64,000 nt of DNA from Hyphomicrobiales bacterium. GTDB lineage: Bacteria; Pseudomonadota; Alphaproteobacteria; Rhizobiales; Xanthobacteraceae. The notes under the pieces are model-generated. The model saw nothing but the letters and a program-made list of their open reading frames with translations. It made no database searches and was not told where the DNA came from. Made by a program: the position numbers and the translations under genes. Location of the stretch: the NCBI GenBank assembly GCA_021732215.1, contig JAKFVL010000008.1, forward strand, positions 1 to 64,000, written 5' to 3'. Shown here piece by piece: positions 28,593 through 52,385 of this stretch; position 1 is the stretch's first letter, and every line of letters starts with the position of its first letter.

Positions 28593-28801
28593 AGGCAATC
28601 CTCCGGCAAGGATGAGACCAAGGATGCGGTATCCTCGAAACGTTGTACGATTCCTGAAAGACGCTAACAACCCATCTAAGAAGCATGGATTTTGGCGGCA
28701 GCGCGGCGGTTTGCCTCGCGATACCATGGCAATCAGCTTTCATTTGGCCCAGAACACCCCAACGTGATGGCAATGACAGCCAAATTGAGACCCGATCCGG
28801 C

Positions 28802-29551
28802 ATGGCCCGTTCCGACTTTCGCAGCCCGCGGCTCTACATCGACGGCCCGCTCGGGGCCGGCGCTGCGGTTCCGCTCGACCGGGATCGCAGCAACTATCTC
28901 GGCAACGTGTTGCGGCTCGGACCCGGCGATGGAGTGCTTGTCTTCAACGGCCGCGACGGCGAATGGCGTGCAGCCATCGAAGGCGGCAAGCGGCCCACGG
29001 CATTGCGCGTCGATGCGCGTGTGCGGGAACAGACCTCGTCGGCTGACCTGCGTTACGTGTTCGCGCCGCTGAAACATGCACGGCTCGATTACATGGTGCA
29101 GAAGGCCGTGGAAATGGGCGCTTCCGGGCTTCAGCCTGTCCTCACGCGGTTCACACAGGTTGCGCGCGTCAATCTCGAACGGATGCAGGCGAATGCCATC
29201 GAGGCTGCCGAACAATGCGGAATTCTCAGCCTCGCAGCGATCGCCGAACCACTGCCGCTGGATCGCTTTCTCAGCGAGCGAGACGCAAACCGTCTCCTGA
29301 TTTTCTGCGACGAAGAGGCTGAAGTCGCCAATCCTGTGGACGCACTGGCGACCTCCGGAAACGGCAAATCCGGGATCGATGTCCTGATCGGACCCGAGGG
29401 CGGGTTCGCTCCCGAGGAACGCGATTTGCTGCTGCGGCAATCCCGGGTCCATCGCCTGTCGCTCGGCCCCCGGATTTTGAGGGCCGATACGGCGGCTGTC
29501 GCGGCGCTTGCGGTGGTCCAGGCAACCTTGGGCGACTGGGACAAAGGCTGA
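28802..29551 (+). CDS. rsmE: 16S rRNA (uracil-1498-N3) methyltransferase RsmE
   Basis: 249 aa, SPOUT superfamily. The N-terminal PUA-like part (NYLGNVLRLGPGDGVLVFNGRDGEW) is followed by the trefoil-knot SAM site: VLIGPEGGFAPEERDLL and LSLGPRILRADTAAVAALAVVQ. The ATG at 28802 gives the standard N-terminus (MARSDFRSPRLYIDGPL); the longer open frame is rejected. It is upstream of a twin-hairpin spacer and hisZ. Confidence 0.94.
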   Translation: MARSDFRSPRLYIDGPLGAGAAVPLDRDRSNYLGNVLRLGPGDGVLVFNGRDGEWRAAIEGGKRPTALRVDARVREQTSSADLRYVFAPLKHARLDYMVQKAVEMGASGLQPVLTRFTQVARVNLERMQANAIEAAEQCGILSLAAIAEPLPLDRFLSERDANRLLIFCDEEAEVANPVDALATSGNGKSGIDVLIGPEGGFAPEERDLLLRQSRVHRLSLGPRILRADTAAVAALAVVQATLGDWDKG

Positions 29552-29576: not shown

Positions 29577-29730
29577 CTGGTGTGGTCGTCCGAAAGCTCC
29601 CTAAACTGGCCTAACGCACTCAACAGGGAGCTTTCGAACGTCAACCACACCAGAATTCATGATTATCGGTGACCTTTCGAATCCGAAGATCGCTAAACAT
29701 TTGCTGCGAGAGGGACGAACTTCGGATTCG
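29577..29730. repeat. Twin-hairpin element, third and divergent example
   Basis: Hairpin 1: left arm 29577-29602, right arm 29625-29653, about 25 pairs with a few single-base insertions. Hairpin 2: perfect 11-bp arms CGAATCCGAAG (29678-29688) and CTTCGGATTCG (29720-29730). It lies between rsmE and hisZ. The arm sequences differ from the copies at 33147 and 51000, apart from the shared ACGAACTTCGGA core, but the two-hairpin plan is the same. No CDS seen. Confidence 0.65.
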
Positions 29731-29829
29731 GGACGCTGATATCGTTAAGCGCGCTTGCGGATCGAGGTCGAAACCCGGCCAGCCCCGTGGTAGAGCGCAG
29801 TCCCTTTTTCTTCCGATCTGGATTTGACC

Positions 29830-30978
29830 ATGGATCAGACCGCCACCCCGCGCGCGTCAGCATCCGCCGTGCCGGCGGAGGCCCTGCTGTCGTCTTTCGT
29901 GCAGGCCGGTTACGTCCATGCCGAACCGCCGATCCTGCAACCGGCCGAGCCGTTCCTGGACATGTCGGGCGAAGACATCCGCAGGAGCCTCTATCTCACG
30001 ACGGATGCCGGTGGCGAGGAACTCTGCCTGCGGCCGGATCTGACGATCCCGGTGGCTTGCGATTATCTCAAGTCGGCCCAGGCCGGACAGCCCGCCGGAT
30101 TCTGTTATCTCGCGCCGGTGTTCCGTTATCGCGCCGGGCGGCCGAGCCAATTCCTGCAGGCCGGCGTCGAATCCTTCGGCCGCGACGACAAGGCGGCTGC
30201 CGACGCCGAGATGCTGTCGCTCGCATTGAAGGCGTTGGAGACCTTCGGCATCCGCGACGCCGAAATCCGCACCGGCGACGTGGCGCTGTTCACCTCGCTG
30301 ATCGATGCGCTCAACCTTTATCCGGTGTGGAAGCGCCGTCTGCTGAAAGACTTCAACCGCAAGGCCAACCTTGCGCAGGACATCGAGCAGATGACGCTCG
30401 CCAGCGTGACGCGGCCCAACGAGTATGCCGGCGTGCTTGCAGCGCTTGCCGGCTCCGATCGTAAGGCGGCGCTGGCGCTGGTCGCCGATCTCATGTCGAT
30501 CGCGGGTGCCTCCAGCCTCGGCGGCCGCGACGTCCCGGAAATCGCCGATCGTTTCCTCGAGCAATCGACGCTTCAGGGCGGCGCCTTTCCGGCCGACGCG
30601 CTGCGGCTGATCCAGCGGTTTCTAGCCATCGGGGGCGAACCGGACGAAGCGCTCGCTGAACTGCGGGCGATGACATCGGACGCAGGAATCAATCTGAACC
30701 CGGCGATCGATCAACTGGAGAGCCGCATCGGCTTCATGGCCGCGCACGGCATCGATACGCGCGCGATCCGCTTCTCGACCTCATTCGGACGCGGCATCGA
30801 TTATTACACCGGCTTCGAATTCGAGTTGCACGCGAAAGGTAACGGCGCGGAGCCGCTGGTCGCCGGCGGCCGCTACGACGGACTGATGACGCAGCTCGGC
30901 TCAAGGATACCGATTGCGGCGGTCGGCTTCTCGATCTGGGTCGAAACGCTGGCGCAGGCGCGCGGGGGTGCGGCATGA
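29830..30978 (+). CDS. hisZ: ATP phosphoribosyltransferase regulatory subunit HisZ
   Basis: 382 aa from the ATG at 29830. It is a class II synthetase (HisRS)-like fold without aminoacylation activity: [59 protein letters not shown] and [16 protein letters not shown]. HisZ binds HisG to regulate the first step of histidine synthesis. The stop overlaps the hisG start (ATGA, 4 bases), consistent with one unit. The TTG at 29824 is a less likely start. Confidence 0.95.
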
Positions 30979-32042: not shown

Positions 32043-33140
32043 ATGATGTCTTCAATGACGCCTGATGCAATGACGCCTGATGCAATGACACCCGGTGCTG
32101 ACGTTTCAAATGGATCGAGCGGCGCTGCGACCGCATTGGGACTGTCGATCGTGGTCCCGGCCTATAACGAGGCCCTCGGCCTGCCGCTCCTGCATGGGCG
32201 TCTCGGCACGCTCGCGGACAGGTTGAAACAGCGTTTCGGCGTCACCTCGGAAGTCGTTTACGTCGACGACGGCAGCAGCGACACGACGCTGCAGGTGGCC
32301 CGGGGGCTGAACCCCGATCGGCTCGACGTGCAGGTGCTGTCGCTCTCCCGCAATTTCGGCAAGGAAGCCGCCCTGATGGCCGGGCTCGACCATGCCCGGC
32401 GCGGCGCCGTGCTGTTCATGGACGCCGACGGTCAACACTCGCCCGACCTGGTTGAAACGCTGGTCGGCCACTGGGTCGTGGACGGCTACGACGTGGTGTT
32501 CACGGCAAAGGCCAGTCGCCAGAACGAGTCGAAAGCAAAGCGTCTTCTGGGGCGCGGCTTCTACGCCATGATCAACTGGGGCGCGCGGCAGAAGATCCCC
32601 GAGGACGCCGGCGACTTCCGCCTGCTATCGCCACGCGCGGCGGCGGCGCTGCGGCAGATGCCGGAGCGCAACCGTTTCTTCAAGGGGCTGACGAGCTGGA
32701 TCGGCTTCCGCCAGAAGCGAGTCGATTACGAGCCCGAGGCACGCGCATCCGGCCAAACCTCGTTCAGCCCGCGCGCGCTGATCGGCCTGTCGATCGAAGG
32801 CATGACGTCGTTCTCGGTCGCGCCGCTGCGGCTCGCCAGCCTGTTCGGCGCGCTGTTCGCCCTGGTCGCGTTCATCTTCGGCCTGACAATCTTGTGGGAG
32901 ACGGTCGTCGACGGCAAATCCGTCCCCGGCTATCCCTCGCTGATGGTCGGCATGATGACCATCGGCGGCGTGCAGCTCATCATGATCGGCGTCGTCGGCG
33001 AATACATCGGCAAGATTCTTTCCGAACTGAAGCGGCGTCCGATGTACTTCGTGGCCGAACACAGCATCAAACGCACCGACGCTGCGCCGAACGCGAGCGA
33101 TCAGATCACCAACGATCACAGCCGGACCGCCGCTGAATGA
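32043..33140 (+). CDS. Family 2 glycosyltransferase of the DPM/ArnC/GtrB type, membrane-anchored
   Basis: 365 aa. The catalytic domain is GT-A: IVVPAYNEALGLPLLHGRL, VVYVDDGSSDTTLQVA, LFMDADGQHSPDL, and EDAGDFRLLSPRAAAALRQMPERNRFFKGLTSWIGF. The C-terminus has two hydrophobic helices (about 265-290 and 300-325), as in polyprenyl-phosphate sugar synthases. The first 20 codons contain three tandem copies of a 15-base unit (ATGACGCCTGATGCA-like), encoding repeated MTPDA. It probably makes a polyprenyl-phosphate sugar. A twin-hairpin element follows 6 bases after the stop. Confidence 0.87.
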   Translation: MMSSMTPDAMTPDAMTPGADVSNGSSGAATALGLSIVVPAYNEALGLPLLHGRLGTLADRLKQRFGVTSEVVYVDDGSSDTTLQVARGLNPDRLDVQVLSLSRNFGKEAALMAGLDHARRGAVLFMDADGQHSPDLVETLVGHWVVDGYDVVFTAKASRQNESKAKRLLGRGFYAMINWGARQKIPEDAGDFRLLSPRAAAALRQMPERNRFFKGLTSWIGFRQKRVDYEPEARASGQTSFSPRALIGLSIEGMTSFSVAPLRLASLFGALFALVAFIFGLTILWETVVDGKSVPGYPSLMVGMMTIGGVQLIMIGVVGEYIGKILSELKRRPMYFVAEHSIKRTDAAPNASDQITNDHSRTAAE

Positions 33141-33146
33141 ACTCGC

Positions 33147-33311
33147 GCCAGTACCCGTTTCCGAAGTTCGTGCGTGCTCGCCGCAGGTCCTTCACACGAA
33201 CTTCGGAAACGAAGGGTACTGGCCAATTTATAATTCTAGTGCCGCTTACGATCTGAAGTTCCTGAGATGAGCTCGCGTCAAATGGTGCAGGAACTTCAGA
33301 TCGGCGGCACC
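33147..33311. repeat. Twin-hairpin element (copy 1)
   Basis: Hairpin 1: left arm 33147-33172, right arm 33195-33223, 26 paired bases interrupted only by a 3-base insertion. Hairpin 2: left arm 33238-33264, right arm 33289-33311, about 22 paired bases. A linker (ATTTATAATTC) lies between them. The copy at 51000-51162 matches in arms, linker and order. The element begins 7 bases after the glycosyltransferase stop and extends into the next CDS. Confidence 0.85.
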
Positions 33312-34184
33312 AGGCGCATCTGGCTGTGCGCCGACGACTACGGCATCAGCCCGGGAGTAAACAGGGCGATCCGCGAACTGATCGTCATGCGGCGGATCAA
33401 CGCCACATCGGTGATGATGGCCGGGCCGGCGATCGATCGCGACGAGATCGATGCGCTCAAAGCCGCCGTGCAGAACAATCCCGCCTGCGCGGTCGGTCTG
33501 CACGCCACCATGACCGCTCCGTTCCAACCGCTGACCATGCATTTCCGCCCGACAGACGGCAGCGCATTCCTTCCCCTTGCCACGATGCTGCGAGCGAGCA
33601 TCCTGCGGCAGCTCGATCGCGACATGATGCGCACCGAATTCGAGGCACAGTTTACGGCATTCAAGACTGCGTTTGGCGAAGCCCCGGCCTATGCGGACGG
33701 GCATCAGCATGTGCAGGTGTTTCCGCAGATACGCGATGCTTTTCTCGACGCGGTGAAACAGTCGGCGCCCGGCGCATGGGTGCGCCAATGCGGATCGCCG
33801 CGCCCGTTCGTTCAGAACCTCACCAATCCAAAAGCAGCATTGCTCGATGTGCTGAGCGGCGGACTGCGCCGCGCGGCGCGGCGCGCCGGAGTTACGTTCA
33901 ATCCTGCGTTCGCAGGCGCCTACGATTTTTCCGGCAAGGCAGATTTCGGCGATCTGATGGGCGGATTCCTGAACGGCCTGCCGGATGGCGGGCTGATCAT
34001 GTGCCACCCCGGATTTGTCGATCAGACGCTGCGCGACCTCGATCCCCTCACCGACCAGCGCGAGCGCGAATATGAATATCTCGCGAGCGATGCGTTCCCG
34101 CGCCTTTTGGCCGCGAAACAGACCGTTCTGATTGATAATTCGGTCGATTTGTCGCACCGCGTTCATGGAATTGCGCAAATTTAA
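33267..34184 (+). CDS. YdjC/ChbG-type carbohydrate deacetylase
   Basis: 305 aa. The family block starts at IWLCADDYGISPGVN (metal-binding Asp-Asp near residues 22-23), with VGLHATMTAPF and YADGHQHVQVFPQIR (metal His residues), and GGLIMCHPGFVD. Likely removes an acetyl group from an amino sugar, or acts as the HpnK-like member of the family. Residues 6-15 (MVQELQIGGT) are encoded by the right arm of hairpin 2, and the ATG sits in its loop; the ATG at 33282 is an alternative. The adjacent polyprenyl-phosphate-type glycosyltransferase suggests a shared glycolipid pathway (inference). Confidence 0.85.
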   Translation: MSSRQMVQELQIGGTRRIWLCADDYGISPGVNRAIRELIVMRRINATSVMMAGPAIDRDEIDALKAAVQNNPACAVGLHATMTAPFQPLTMHFRPTDGSAFLPLATMLRASILRQLDRDMMRTEFEAQFTAFKTAFGEAPAYADGHQHVQVFPQIRDAFLDAVKQSAPGAWVRQCGSPRPFVQNLTNPKAALLDVLSGGLRRAARRAGVTFNPAFAGAYDFSGKADFGDLMGGFLNGLPDGGLIMCHPGFVDQTLRDLDPLTDQREREYEYLASDAFPRLLAAKQTVLIDNSVDLSHRVHGIAQI

Positions 34185-50993: not shown

Positions 50994-50999
50994 TGCGCT

Positions 51000-51162
51000 A
51001 GTACCCAGTTTCCGAAGTTCGTCAATCCTCGCAGCAACCCCCTCCGACGAACTTCGGAACCGAAAGGGTGTCAACAATCCATAATTCCAGTACCGCTTTC
51101 GATCTGAAGTTCCTGATAGTGAACGAGCAGCAACGGTGCAGGAACTTCAGATCGGCGGTACC
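51000..51162. repeat. Twin-hairpin element (copy 2)
   Basis: Hairpin 1: left arm 51000-51023, right arm about 51046-51070. Hairpin 2: left arm 51088-51115, right arm 51139-51162. Arms, linker (CATAATTC) and order match copy 1 at 33147-33311 base for base in long stretches (for example GATCTGAAGTTCCTGA and CAGGAACTTCAGATCGGCGG). The whole spacer between glcE and glcF is this element, and the last part lies inside glcE. Confidence 0.85.
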
Positions 51163-52385
51163 AGCGTCATCCGGCCGCGGTTCAAGATATCGCGGGGATC
51201 GAAGCTCGACTTCACCCGGCGGTTCAAGGCGGCAACGCCGTCACTGTGCGGATGGAACACATCGATCGCGCGGCGTAGCGGATCGGAACCGCGGATCAGC
51301 GTGGCGTGGCCCTCAATGGCGGCAAGTTTTGCGCGCAGATGACCGGCATGCGCATCGGCCGACGGCGGCAACGCGGCCCAGATCAGGCCGCCGCCCCAAT
51401 CGTAGATCACATCCCCGCCTGTCTCGCGTGCAAGTTCGCGGCCGAACGCGCCGCCTGAGGCGGGCGGACAGACAATGCGCCAGACCGGCCACGCGCCGAG
51501 CGGGCCCGACGCCGCGAACGGCGTGACATCGCGGATCGCGACCCACACCGCTTGCGACGCCGTATCCTCGCACCGGTCCGCCTTGCCGAACGATGCCAGG
51601 GCCGCGGTCAGCGAATTGGCGCGATGCGTCACCGACGCACCGATGCCCTCGAGCCGCAGCAATGTCACTGACCCCTGCGATCCGAGACTGGCGAGAGCGC
51701 CAATCGCACCGCGAAACGCCGATTGCGGCAGATGGGCCGCACCCGAGACGTCGAACGACGATCCCAGCGCCGCACTCATGGCGCGGTTCGCCGCCACATC
51801 GTCGAGACCGTGCAGCACCAGCGTGACCTCATGCTCGGCCTTGGGCATCACCTTCAGCGTCACTTCGGTCATCACCGCGAGGGTACCCCACGAGCCCGCG
51901 ATCAGCTTGCAGAGATCGTAGCCGGTGACGTTCTTCACCACCCGGCCGCCGGCCTTGAAGCTCTCGCCGAAGCCCGAAACCGCGGCAACGCCGAGCAGAT
52001 GGTCGCGCGCGCCCCCGGACTTGATCCGGCGCGGACCGGCCAGACCCGCGGCAATGGTTCCGCCGATCGTTCCTGATAGCGAGGCCGTGCCGAGCAGAGC
52101 TGACGTATCCATCGGCTCAAAGTCGAATTCCTGATTTTTGGAATCGATCAGCGACTTGATATCCGCCATCGGTGCGCCAGCCTCGACCGTCAGGATCAGC
52201 TCGTTCGGCTCGTAGGACGTGACGCCGTTCAGCGCGGACAGATCGAGCACCGCATTGGTCGCTGTCGGCTGGCCGACGGCGCGCTTGGTGCCGTGGCCGA
52301 CGATCTCGAGCGGCTGCTCGGCCGCGATCGCGGCCTGCACCGCCTGCTCGACGTCCTTTGCGTCACGGATTTTCAGGATGTCCAC
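51147..52385 (-). CDS. glcE: Glycolate oxidase FAD-binding subunit GlcE
   Basis: 412 aa from the GTG at 52385 (MDILKIRDAKDVEQ), with GAGG 8 bases upstream. FAD_binding_4 domain: LEIVGHGTKRAVGQP, LSGTIGGTIAAGLAGPRRIKSG, FKAGGRVVKNVTGYDLCKLIAGSWG. Its last codons (ILNRGRMTLVPPI-stop) run into hairpin 2 of the twin-hairpin element: the stop at 51147-51149 is inside the right arm. The longer open frame beyond 52385 is an antisense shadow of glcD. Confidence 0.9.
   Translation of the reverse strand: MDILKIRDAKDVEQAVQAAIAAEQPLEIVGHGTKRAVGQPTATNAVLDLSALNGVTSYEPNELILTVEAGAPMADIKSLIDSKNQEFDFEPMDTSALLGTASLSGTIGGTIAAGLAGPRRIKSGGARDHLLGVAAVSGFGESFKAGGRVVKNVTGYDLCKLIAGSWGTLAVMTEVTLKVMPKAEHEVTLVLHGLDDVAANRAMSAALGSSFDVSGAAHLPQSAFRGAIGALASLGSQGSVTLLRLEGIGASVTHRANSLTAALASFGKADRCEDTASQAVWVAIRDVTPFAASGPLGAWPVWRIVCPPASGGAFGRELARETGGDVIYDWGGGLIWAALPPSADAHAGHLRAKLAAIEGHATLIRGSDPLRRAIDVFHPHSDGVAALNRRVKSSFDPRDILNRGRMTLVPPI

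Follow-up and report, generated by a model that had tools for sequence, protein, structure and literature searches.

A dispersed 166-bp repeat with two hairpins lies in the fourth codon of a ydjC-type deacetylase gene, and comparison with relatives makes it likely (a probability of about 0.75) that this insertion put the old start codon out of frame and that ydjC is now read from a start in the loop of hairpin 2. The gene lies in the window, the whole analysed stretch of 64,000 nucleotides from a Hyphomicrobiales bacterium (this genome is G000 in the comparisons below). The features concerned are:

32043-33140, plus strand: upstream glycosyltransferase family 2 gene (PF00535, 93.8 bits)
33137-33139, plus strand: ancestral start codon ATG, overlapping the glycosyltransferase stop at 33138-33140
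33137-33256, plus strand: remnant 39-codon frame, beginning at the old start, crossing hairpin 1 and ending within the left arm of hairpin 2 at TGA 33254-33256
33148-33313, plus strand: two-hairpin dispersed repeat, 166 bp (model R1, 165.5 bits, full length 1-168)
33148-33222, no strand assigned: hairpin 1 of the repeat, CCAGTACCC...GGGTACTGG, with a perfect core at 33156-33172 / 33195-33211
33223-33235, no strand assigned: A+T-rich inter-hairpin spacer of 13 nt, with TATAAT at 33229-33234
33236-33313, no strand assigned: hairpin 2 of the repeat, CTAGTGCC...GGCACCAG
33265-33287, plus strand: loop of hairpin 2 with in-frame start codons
33267-33269, plus strand: ATG, alternative candidate start of ydjC (MSSRQMVQELQIGGT...), in the loop with its upstream region paired
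33282-33284, plus strand: ATG, likeliest start of ydjC (MVQELQIGGT...), with a more open upstream region and followed by in-frame GTG 33285
33282-34184, plus strand: ydjC-type deacetylase gene (PF04794, 169.2 bits against a cut-off of 29.7, profile positions 1-265 of 266)
50998-51164, plus strand: second copy of the repeat (156.7 bits)
29577-29739, minus strand: third, diverged copy of the repeat (85.9 bits)

The open frame 33267-34184 gave a full-length domain match to PF04794, placing the gene among the YdjC/ChbG deacetylases. A comparison of ydjC genes produced 42 matches in 39 genomes, and the best 30 loci were examined, 29 of them besides the window. The repeat was missing from all 29, leaving the window as the only carrier of the 30. 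In every one of these other loci a presumed glycosyltransferase frame, 347-431 codons long, ended just upstream of ydjC, and in 20 of the 29 the ydjC start overlapped the upstream stop. The distance from this stop to the ADDY motif was 20-116 nt in 28 loci, 326 nt in the remaining one (L027) and 192 nt in the window. When the window flanks were joined without the repeat they read MNSRRIWLCADDYG in frame, resembling relatives (e.g. MSECRIWL, MSTAQGTGQRRIWL), while the old ATG at 33137 survives out of frame with ydjC. Taken together, the repeat-free relatives, the restored MNSRRIWLCADDYG frame and the out-of-frame ATG indicate that a 166-bp insertion displaced the ydjC start; the insertion and the loss of the stop/start overlap are established by this comparison of sequences. 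A sequence-only reading of the same DNA had suggested that a natural start was replaced by an insertion, which is now well supported, and had reasoned that the idea would fail if orthologues free of the element shared the N-terminus; VQELQIGG was found at none of the 29 other loci. Beyond that reading, the hairpin it described proved to be half of a 166-bp element that also contains hairpin 1 and lies downstream of the old start at 33137.

The congener G001 has no copy at this site, and the window insertion is not one of the four found to be shared when the 28 copies of this genome were compared with the 25 of G001, a low number that points to turnover since the species split. The ydjC genes of the two species differ with a dN/dS of 0.136 (283 codons). 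With the G001 site empty, the element may have entered ydjC recently, and the purifying selection seen between the species may be older than the insertion. The N-terminus of the element-free G001 gene (L010, ~2365-2400) is longer than that of several relatives and contains GGTACTGG, like the end of the element, which could be the scar of a lost copy or chance. At L027, in genome G033, the ydjC junction is occupied by hairpin-rich sequence of another kind that ends in a GTG start; it did not match the element model and looks like a second invasion of this start region by a repeat.

The fold of the repeat was examined by perfect pairing and with RNAfold. The arms of hairpin 2 pair perfectly over 16 nt (33249-33264 / 33288-33303), and RNAfold widens them to 33239-33264 / 33288-33310 (-41.5 kcal/mol, z of -6.1 against 200 shuffles); the fold of 33137-33340 has a z of -8.5. 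A covariance model was built from 27 full copies of this genome, and in their alignment 45 base pairs were kept in 96.4% of cells, with 17 of the 45 changed on both sides. None of 500 shuffles reached this level of pairing, which was also above that of all slid versions. The pairing is thus more than chance. A simple scan detected neither a promoter nor a terminator; the spacer of the window copy has a perfect TATAAT at 33229-33234, for which the scan gave no promoter-like pair and no promoter site.

The ydjC frame opens after TAG 33237-33239 and offers three starts, ATG 33267, ATG 33282 and GTG 33285. Past these three, no in-frame ATG, GTG or TTG occurs until residue 41 of a frame 305 residues long, which is already within the YdjC domain, and by this reading of the frame all in-frame starts before the domain lie inside the repeat. 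The sequence-only reading had placed ATG 33267 in the hairpin loop with its ribosome binding site covered by the left arm, and both points agree with the arms found here and with the predicted fold. It had also made MVQELQIGGT the product of that ATG and of the right arm. The right arm does encode QELQIGGT, and it does match the second copy, differing by one base, but the peptide starts at the second loop ATG, 33282, whereas 33267 gives MSSRQMVQELQIGGT. Its placing of the conserved family sequence was accurate, with YdjC similarity beginning at about (RR)IWLCADDYG.

ATG 33282 is the likelier of the two ATG starts, because its upstream region is more open and because an ATG is enriched at this place in copies with an in-frame gene. 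The 15 nt upstream of it in the loop have unpaired probabilities of 0.24 to 1.0 (mean ~0.63). Among the copies of G000 and G001, five of the seven with an in-frame plus-strand gene, the window included, have ATG at the place of 33282 (four copies) or at the next codon (one copy), compared with 6 of the 46 others (p=0.003). No copy in G033 or G009 has ATG at either codon, and many G033 copies have GTG there. Two properties count against a loop start: the sequence near 33282 pairs only weakly as a Shine-Dalgarno site (-2.7 kcal/mol), and the start is directly followed by a stem of about -41 kcal/mol. From the frame and the comparison of copies, we nevertheless infer that a loop start is probably in use.

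The following sequence of events would account for the arrangement. Before the insertion, the upstream glycosyltransferase gene would have ended in a stop codon that shared nucleotides with the ydjC start. Entry of the 166-bp repeat into the fourth codon would have put this start out of frame, and initiation in the loop, most likely at ATG 33282, would make the first ten YdjC residues (MVQELQIGGT) repeat-derived. Ribosomes might reach this start by binding the open loop directly. Alternatively, ribosomes finishing the glycosyltransferase could restart at the old ATG and translate the 39-codon remnant through hairpin 1; by stopping at 33254-33256 in the left arm they would open hairpin 2, and could then restart at a loop ATG 10 or 25 nt beyond that stop.

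To examine other copies, a discovery set was assembled from five genomes (G000, G001, G033, G009 and G067); of 108 copies fetched, one at a contig end was dropped, leaving 107, and 28 of the 30 loci of this genome were included, the two weakest being omitted. Neighbouring genes were called by a simple codon-usage score trained on the window, and the counts are exploratory, since the idea arose from the same data. In hairpin 1 an ATG is often present in the loop on the minus strand, and M-x-x-ELRK(P/Q/R)GT is read from it into a gene; on the plus strand many copies have ATG or GTG in the loop of hairpin 2, reading VQELQIGGT. At a gene score of at least 20, genes lay in the start-bearing frame in 41 of 70 copies, where one third would be expected (p=1.3e-5). 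The excess held at score cut-offs of 8, 15 and 30 (p between 7e-6 and 3e-4) and when shared insertions were counted once (38/67, p=7e-5), and a random-cut control gave near equal thirds (645, 633, 587). By genome, the gene lay in the start-bearing frame in 19/26 copies in G000, 10/15 in G033, 7/15 in G001, 2/10 in G009 and 0/1 in G067. Where the first start outside the element lay at least 14 codons into the gene, 17 of 20 genes were in the start-bearing frame, and all 17 had a start codon in the element. Start codons were present in the minus-strand loop in 23 of 26 copies with an in-frame gene and in 47 of 81 others (p=0.003). Of 30 upstream genes entering the element, 24 stopped at its terminal CTAG (G000 5/8, G001 5/5, G033 11/12, G009 2/4, G067 1/1).

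SdhA and SdhC are the clearest other cases, in both congeners. SdhA of G000 and G001 reads MTDELRKPGT from the repeat (MTDELRKPGTSAPATNGQAYPIEDHTYD), and its first start codon beyond the element is codon 42; this tag was absent from all 20 readable loci in other genomes (22 loci, two unread). An HD-domain gene at L091, presumably dGTPase-like, reads MVQELQIGGT from the repeat, and its tag was absent from all 12 readable other loci (13 loci, one unread). The first outside start falls inside the Pfam domain in YdjC, SdhA, SdhC, an IclR-type gene, two ABC ATPases and an inositol-phosphatase-type gene. These frames suggest that in this genus and in one other, that of G033, further genes rely on start codons located within copies of the repeat, on either strand. 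A few in-frame genes probably do not start in the element. The gene at L132, which we take to be GlmS, is in frame with a loop ATG, but its own Met-Cys start, which GlmS needs, is present at codon 20. L167 (assumed to be a phosphoribosyl-pyrophosphate synthase) and L176 were counted in the frame test and are among the 17 genes above, but their real starts are probably further in; the GST domain of L176 begins at residue 58.

Tests fixed beforehand were then applied to held-out copies. The first set comprised 40 copies and drew on 13 genomes, of which G067 had contributed five discovery copies and the other 12 were new; three loci cut by contig ends were kept. Across these 40 copies neither effect was seen: the downstream gene lay in the start-bearing frame in 5 of 23 cases (p=0.92), the upstream gene stopped at the terminal CTAG in 6 of 14 (p=0.31), and of the genes with no near outside start one of six was in the start-bearing frame. 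Several copies of this set have an in-frame TAG just before GAACTT in loop 2. A second set consisted of 25 further copies from G033. Here the downstream gene lay in the start-bearing frame in 6 of 10 cases (p=0.077) and the upstream gene stopped at the terminal CTAG in nine of nine (p=5e-5); four of five genes with no near outside start were in frame, two of these four lacking a start codon in the element. The negative result in 13 genomes indicates that supplying starts is a habit of some subfamilies and not of the superfamily. The frame excess would thus belong to G000, G033 and perhaps G001, and not to G009 or G067, and only certain subfamilies, in certain lineages, seem to provide genes with starts and stops.

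Target-site preference offers another origin for the excess of in-frame genes and CTAG stops, as copies landing beside start or stop codons would acquire a set phase. In line with this, a start codon lay within two codons of the element edge in 24 of 75 neighbouring genes of the discovery set, compared with 12.7% of random cuts, and no target duplication was found. A preference of this kind does not readily explain the discovery genes that had no outside start within 13 codons, 17 of 20 of which were in the start-bearing frame, but the corresponding held-out figure was one of six. We regard target-site preference as somewhat unlikely to be the source of the excess.

For ydjC itself, the insertion could instead have crippled or silenced the gene, the open frame merely not having decayed yet. 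The broken overlap with the upstream gene, the weak Shine-Dalgarno pairing at the loop start, the strong stem over the codons after it and the empty site in the congener all fit such a loss; the frame, however, is intact across the whole domain, the window loop has an ATG where most copies of the genus have none, and SdhA is similarly arranged in two species, so that silencing appears improbable. It had also been suggested that the hairpin could control translation of ydjC, and it may do so. A narrower reading makes it an evolved regulator that opens, for example, in response to temperature or a factor. A start codon in the loop of a strong, conserved stem is what such a regulator would look like, but the stem is a trait of the family and occurs also in copies with no called in-frame gene, copies that have an in-frame gene and those that lack one were alike in Shine-Dalgarno strength (measured in the other strand's loop, p=0.90), and the insertion is found at only one of 30 ydjC loci; we consider an evolved regulator very improbable. 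A displaced ydjC start with initiation in the loop of hairpin 2 is the reading we prefer.

In some lineages the repeat might act as a portable stop-start cassette for operons, making insertions at tight gene junctions survivable and providing the true start of core genes such as sdhA and sdhC, a proposal to which we give slightly less than an even chance. In such a cassette the terminal CTAG would close the upstream frame, and a start codon in the gene-facing hairpin loop, on either strand, would open the downstream one. This wider pattern, limited to some lineages, would be of more interest than a single accident. Small palindromic repeats are usually regarded as intergenic debris or in-frame inserts; if the loop starts are used, a mobile repeat would carry with it the start (and stop) signals needed to mend what its insertion had broken, which would also explain N-termini that annotators could misplace. 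The ydjC case would then let initiation within a hairpin loop be studied as a natural experiment.

Several described repeats share parts of this behaviour. Rickettsia palindromic elements (RPE; ~100-150 bp) are likewise palindromic, enter protein genes and are translated in frame (PMC2229807, PMC10969869), but from the descriptions available they form in-frame fusions inside genes, whereas the repeat here would give a start codon and an N-terminus, on either strand. The enterobacterial RU-1/ERIC and RU-2 are dispersed repeats whose frames fuse to genes, some N-terminally (PMC2759123); the accessible part of that account makes no mention of a loop start codon replacing the start of an orthologue, and 'start codon' occurs in it 0 times. 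In Coxiella, the ends of QMITE1/2 similarly give stop codons to upstream genes, although apparently no gene of known function has its 5' end altered by one, judging from the portion of the source at hand (PMC5896051), while the repeat here does affect 5' ends. Related bacteria have palindromic repeats as well: Br-REP1 and Br-REP2 of Bradyrhizobium japonicum occur in transcribed regions, both 3' untranslated and intergenic (PMC5082802, in excerpt), and their printed consensus is unlike this repeat in a by-eye comparison. CIR elements of Caulobacter and Brucella also have two independently folding arms (PMC2229807, in part), and the spacer consensus of our 27 copies contains GATTC, a GANTC site; in this comparison by description, CIR elements are said not to be found in genes, and the window copy reads AATTC at the GATTC position. 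A full-text search covering few subscription journals returned no paper for the peptides ELRKPGT, ELRKQGT, QELQIGGT or VQELQIGG, and among the matches listed no title or opening of an abstract described this repeat or start donation; priority is not claimed.

The repeat is best explained as a non-coding element that is or once was mobile. Like a MITE it is short, of near fixed length (160-182 bp in 107 copies, 166-168 bp in 83 of them), non-coding and dispersed, with inverted, mostly CTAG-like termini at both ends. Target site duplication, expected of a MITE, was not seen, flank matches numbering 10 against 9.5 in shuffled flanks (2 nt) and 1 against 1.8 (3 nt). The 166-bp unit of two hairpins exceeds the 20-40 bp of REP sequences, which are described as GTAG/CGTC tagged (PMC3733652, in part). 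No Y1 (RAYT) transposase flanked by copies was found; the single PF01797 match (C13:36737) was borderline, at 23.1 bits against a cut-off of 23, and had no repeat match listed near it among the 150 of 1898 candidates scored. Rfam gave no family above its gathering score in the window, the matches in 33100-33360 (nine miRNA models and one RsmV) all being far below their cut-offs, and no plasmid match was found.

With the same 150 candidates scored, this genome has 28 copies above 130 bits, plus weaker ones. In the window, ATG 50993 of an Fe-S protein gene on the minus strand (PF02754 and Fer4 domains) has the second copy 4 nt upstream of it, and the third copy sits between plus-strand ORFs 28685-29551 and 29824-30978. 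Matches to the repeat were found in at least 39 of 101 genomes searched, with at most 28 candidates scored per genome, and the named genomes listed by a pattern search were Hyphomicrobiales MAG D1_Bin_34, Afipia birgiae, Bradyrhizobium vignae and B. retamae. In G033, the copies at L345-L351, L353 and L354 form a very uniform subfamily (CTAGTGTCCCGG... or nearly so), a uniformity that suggests recent spread.
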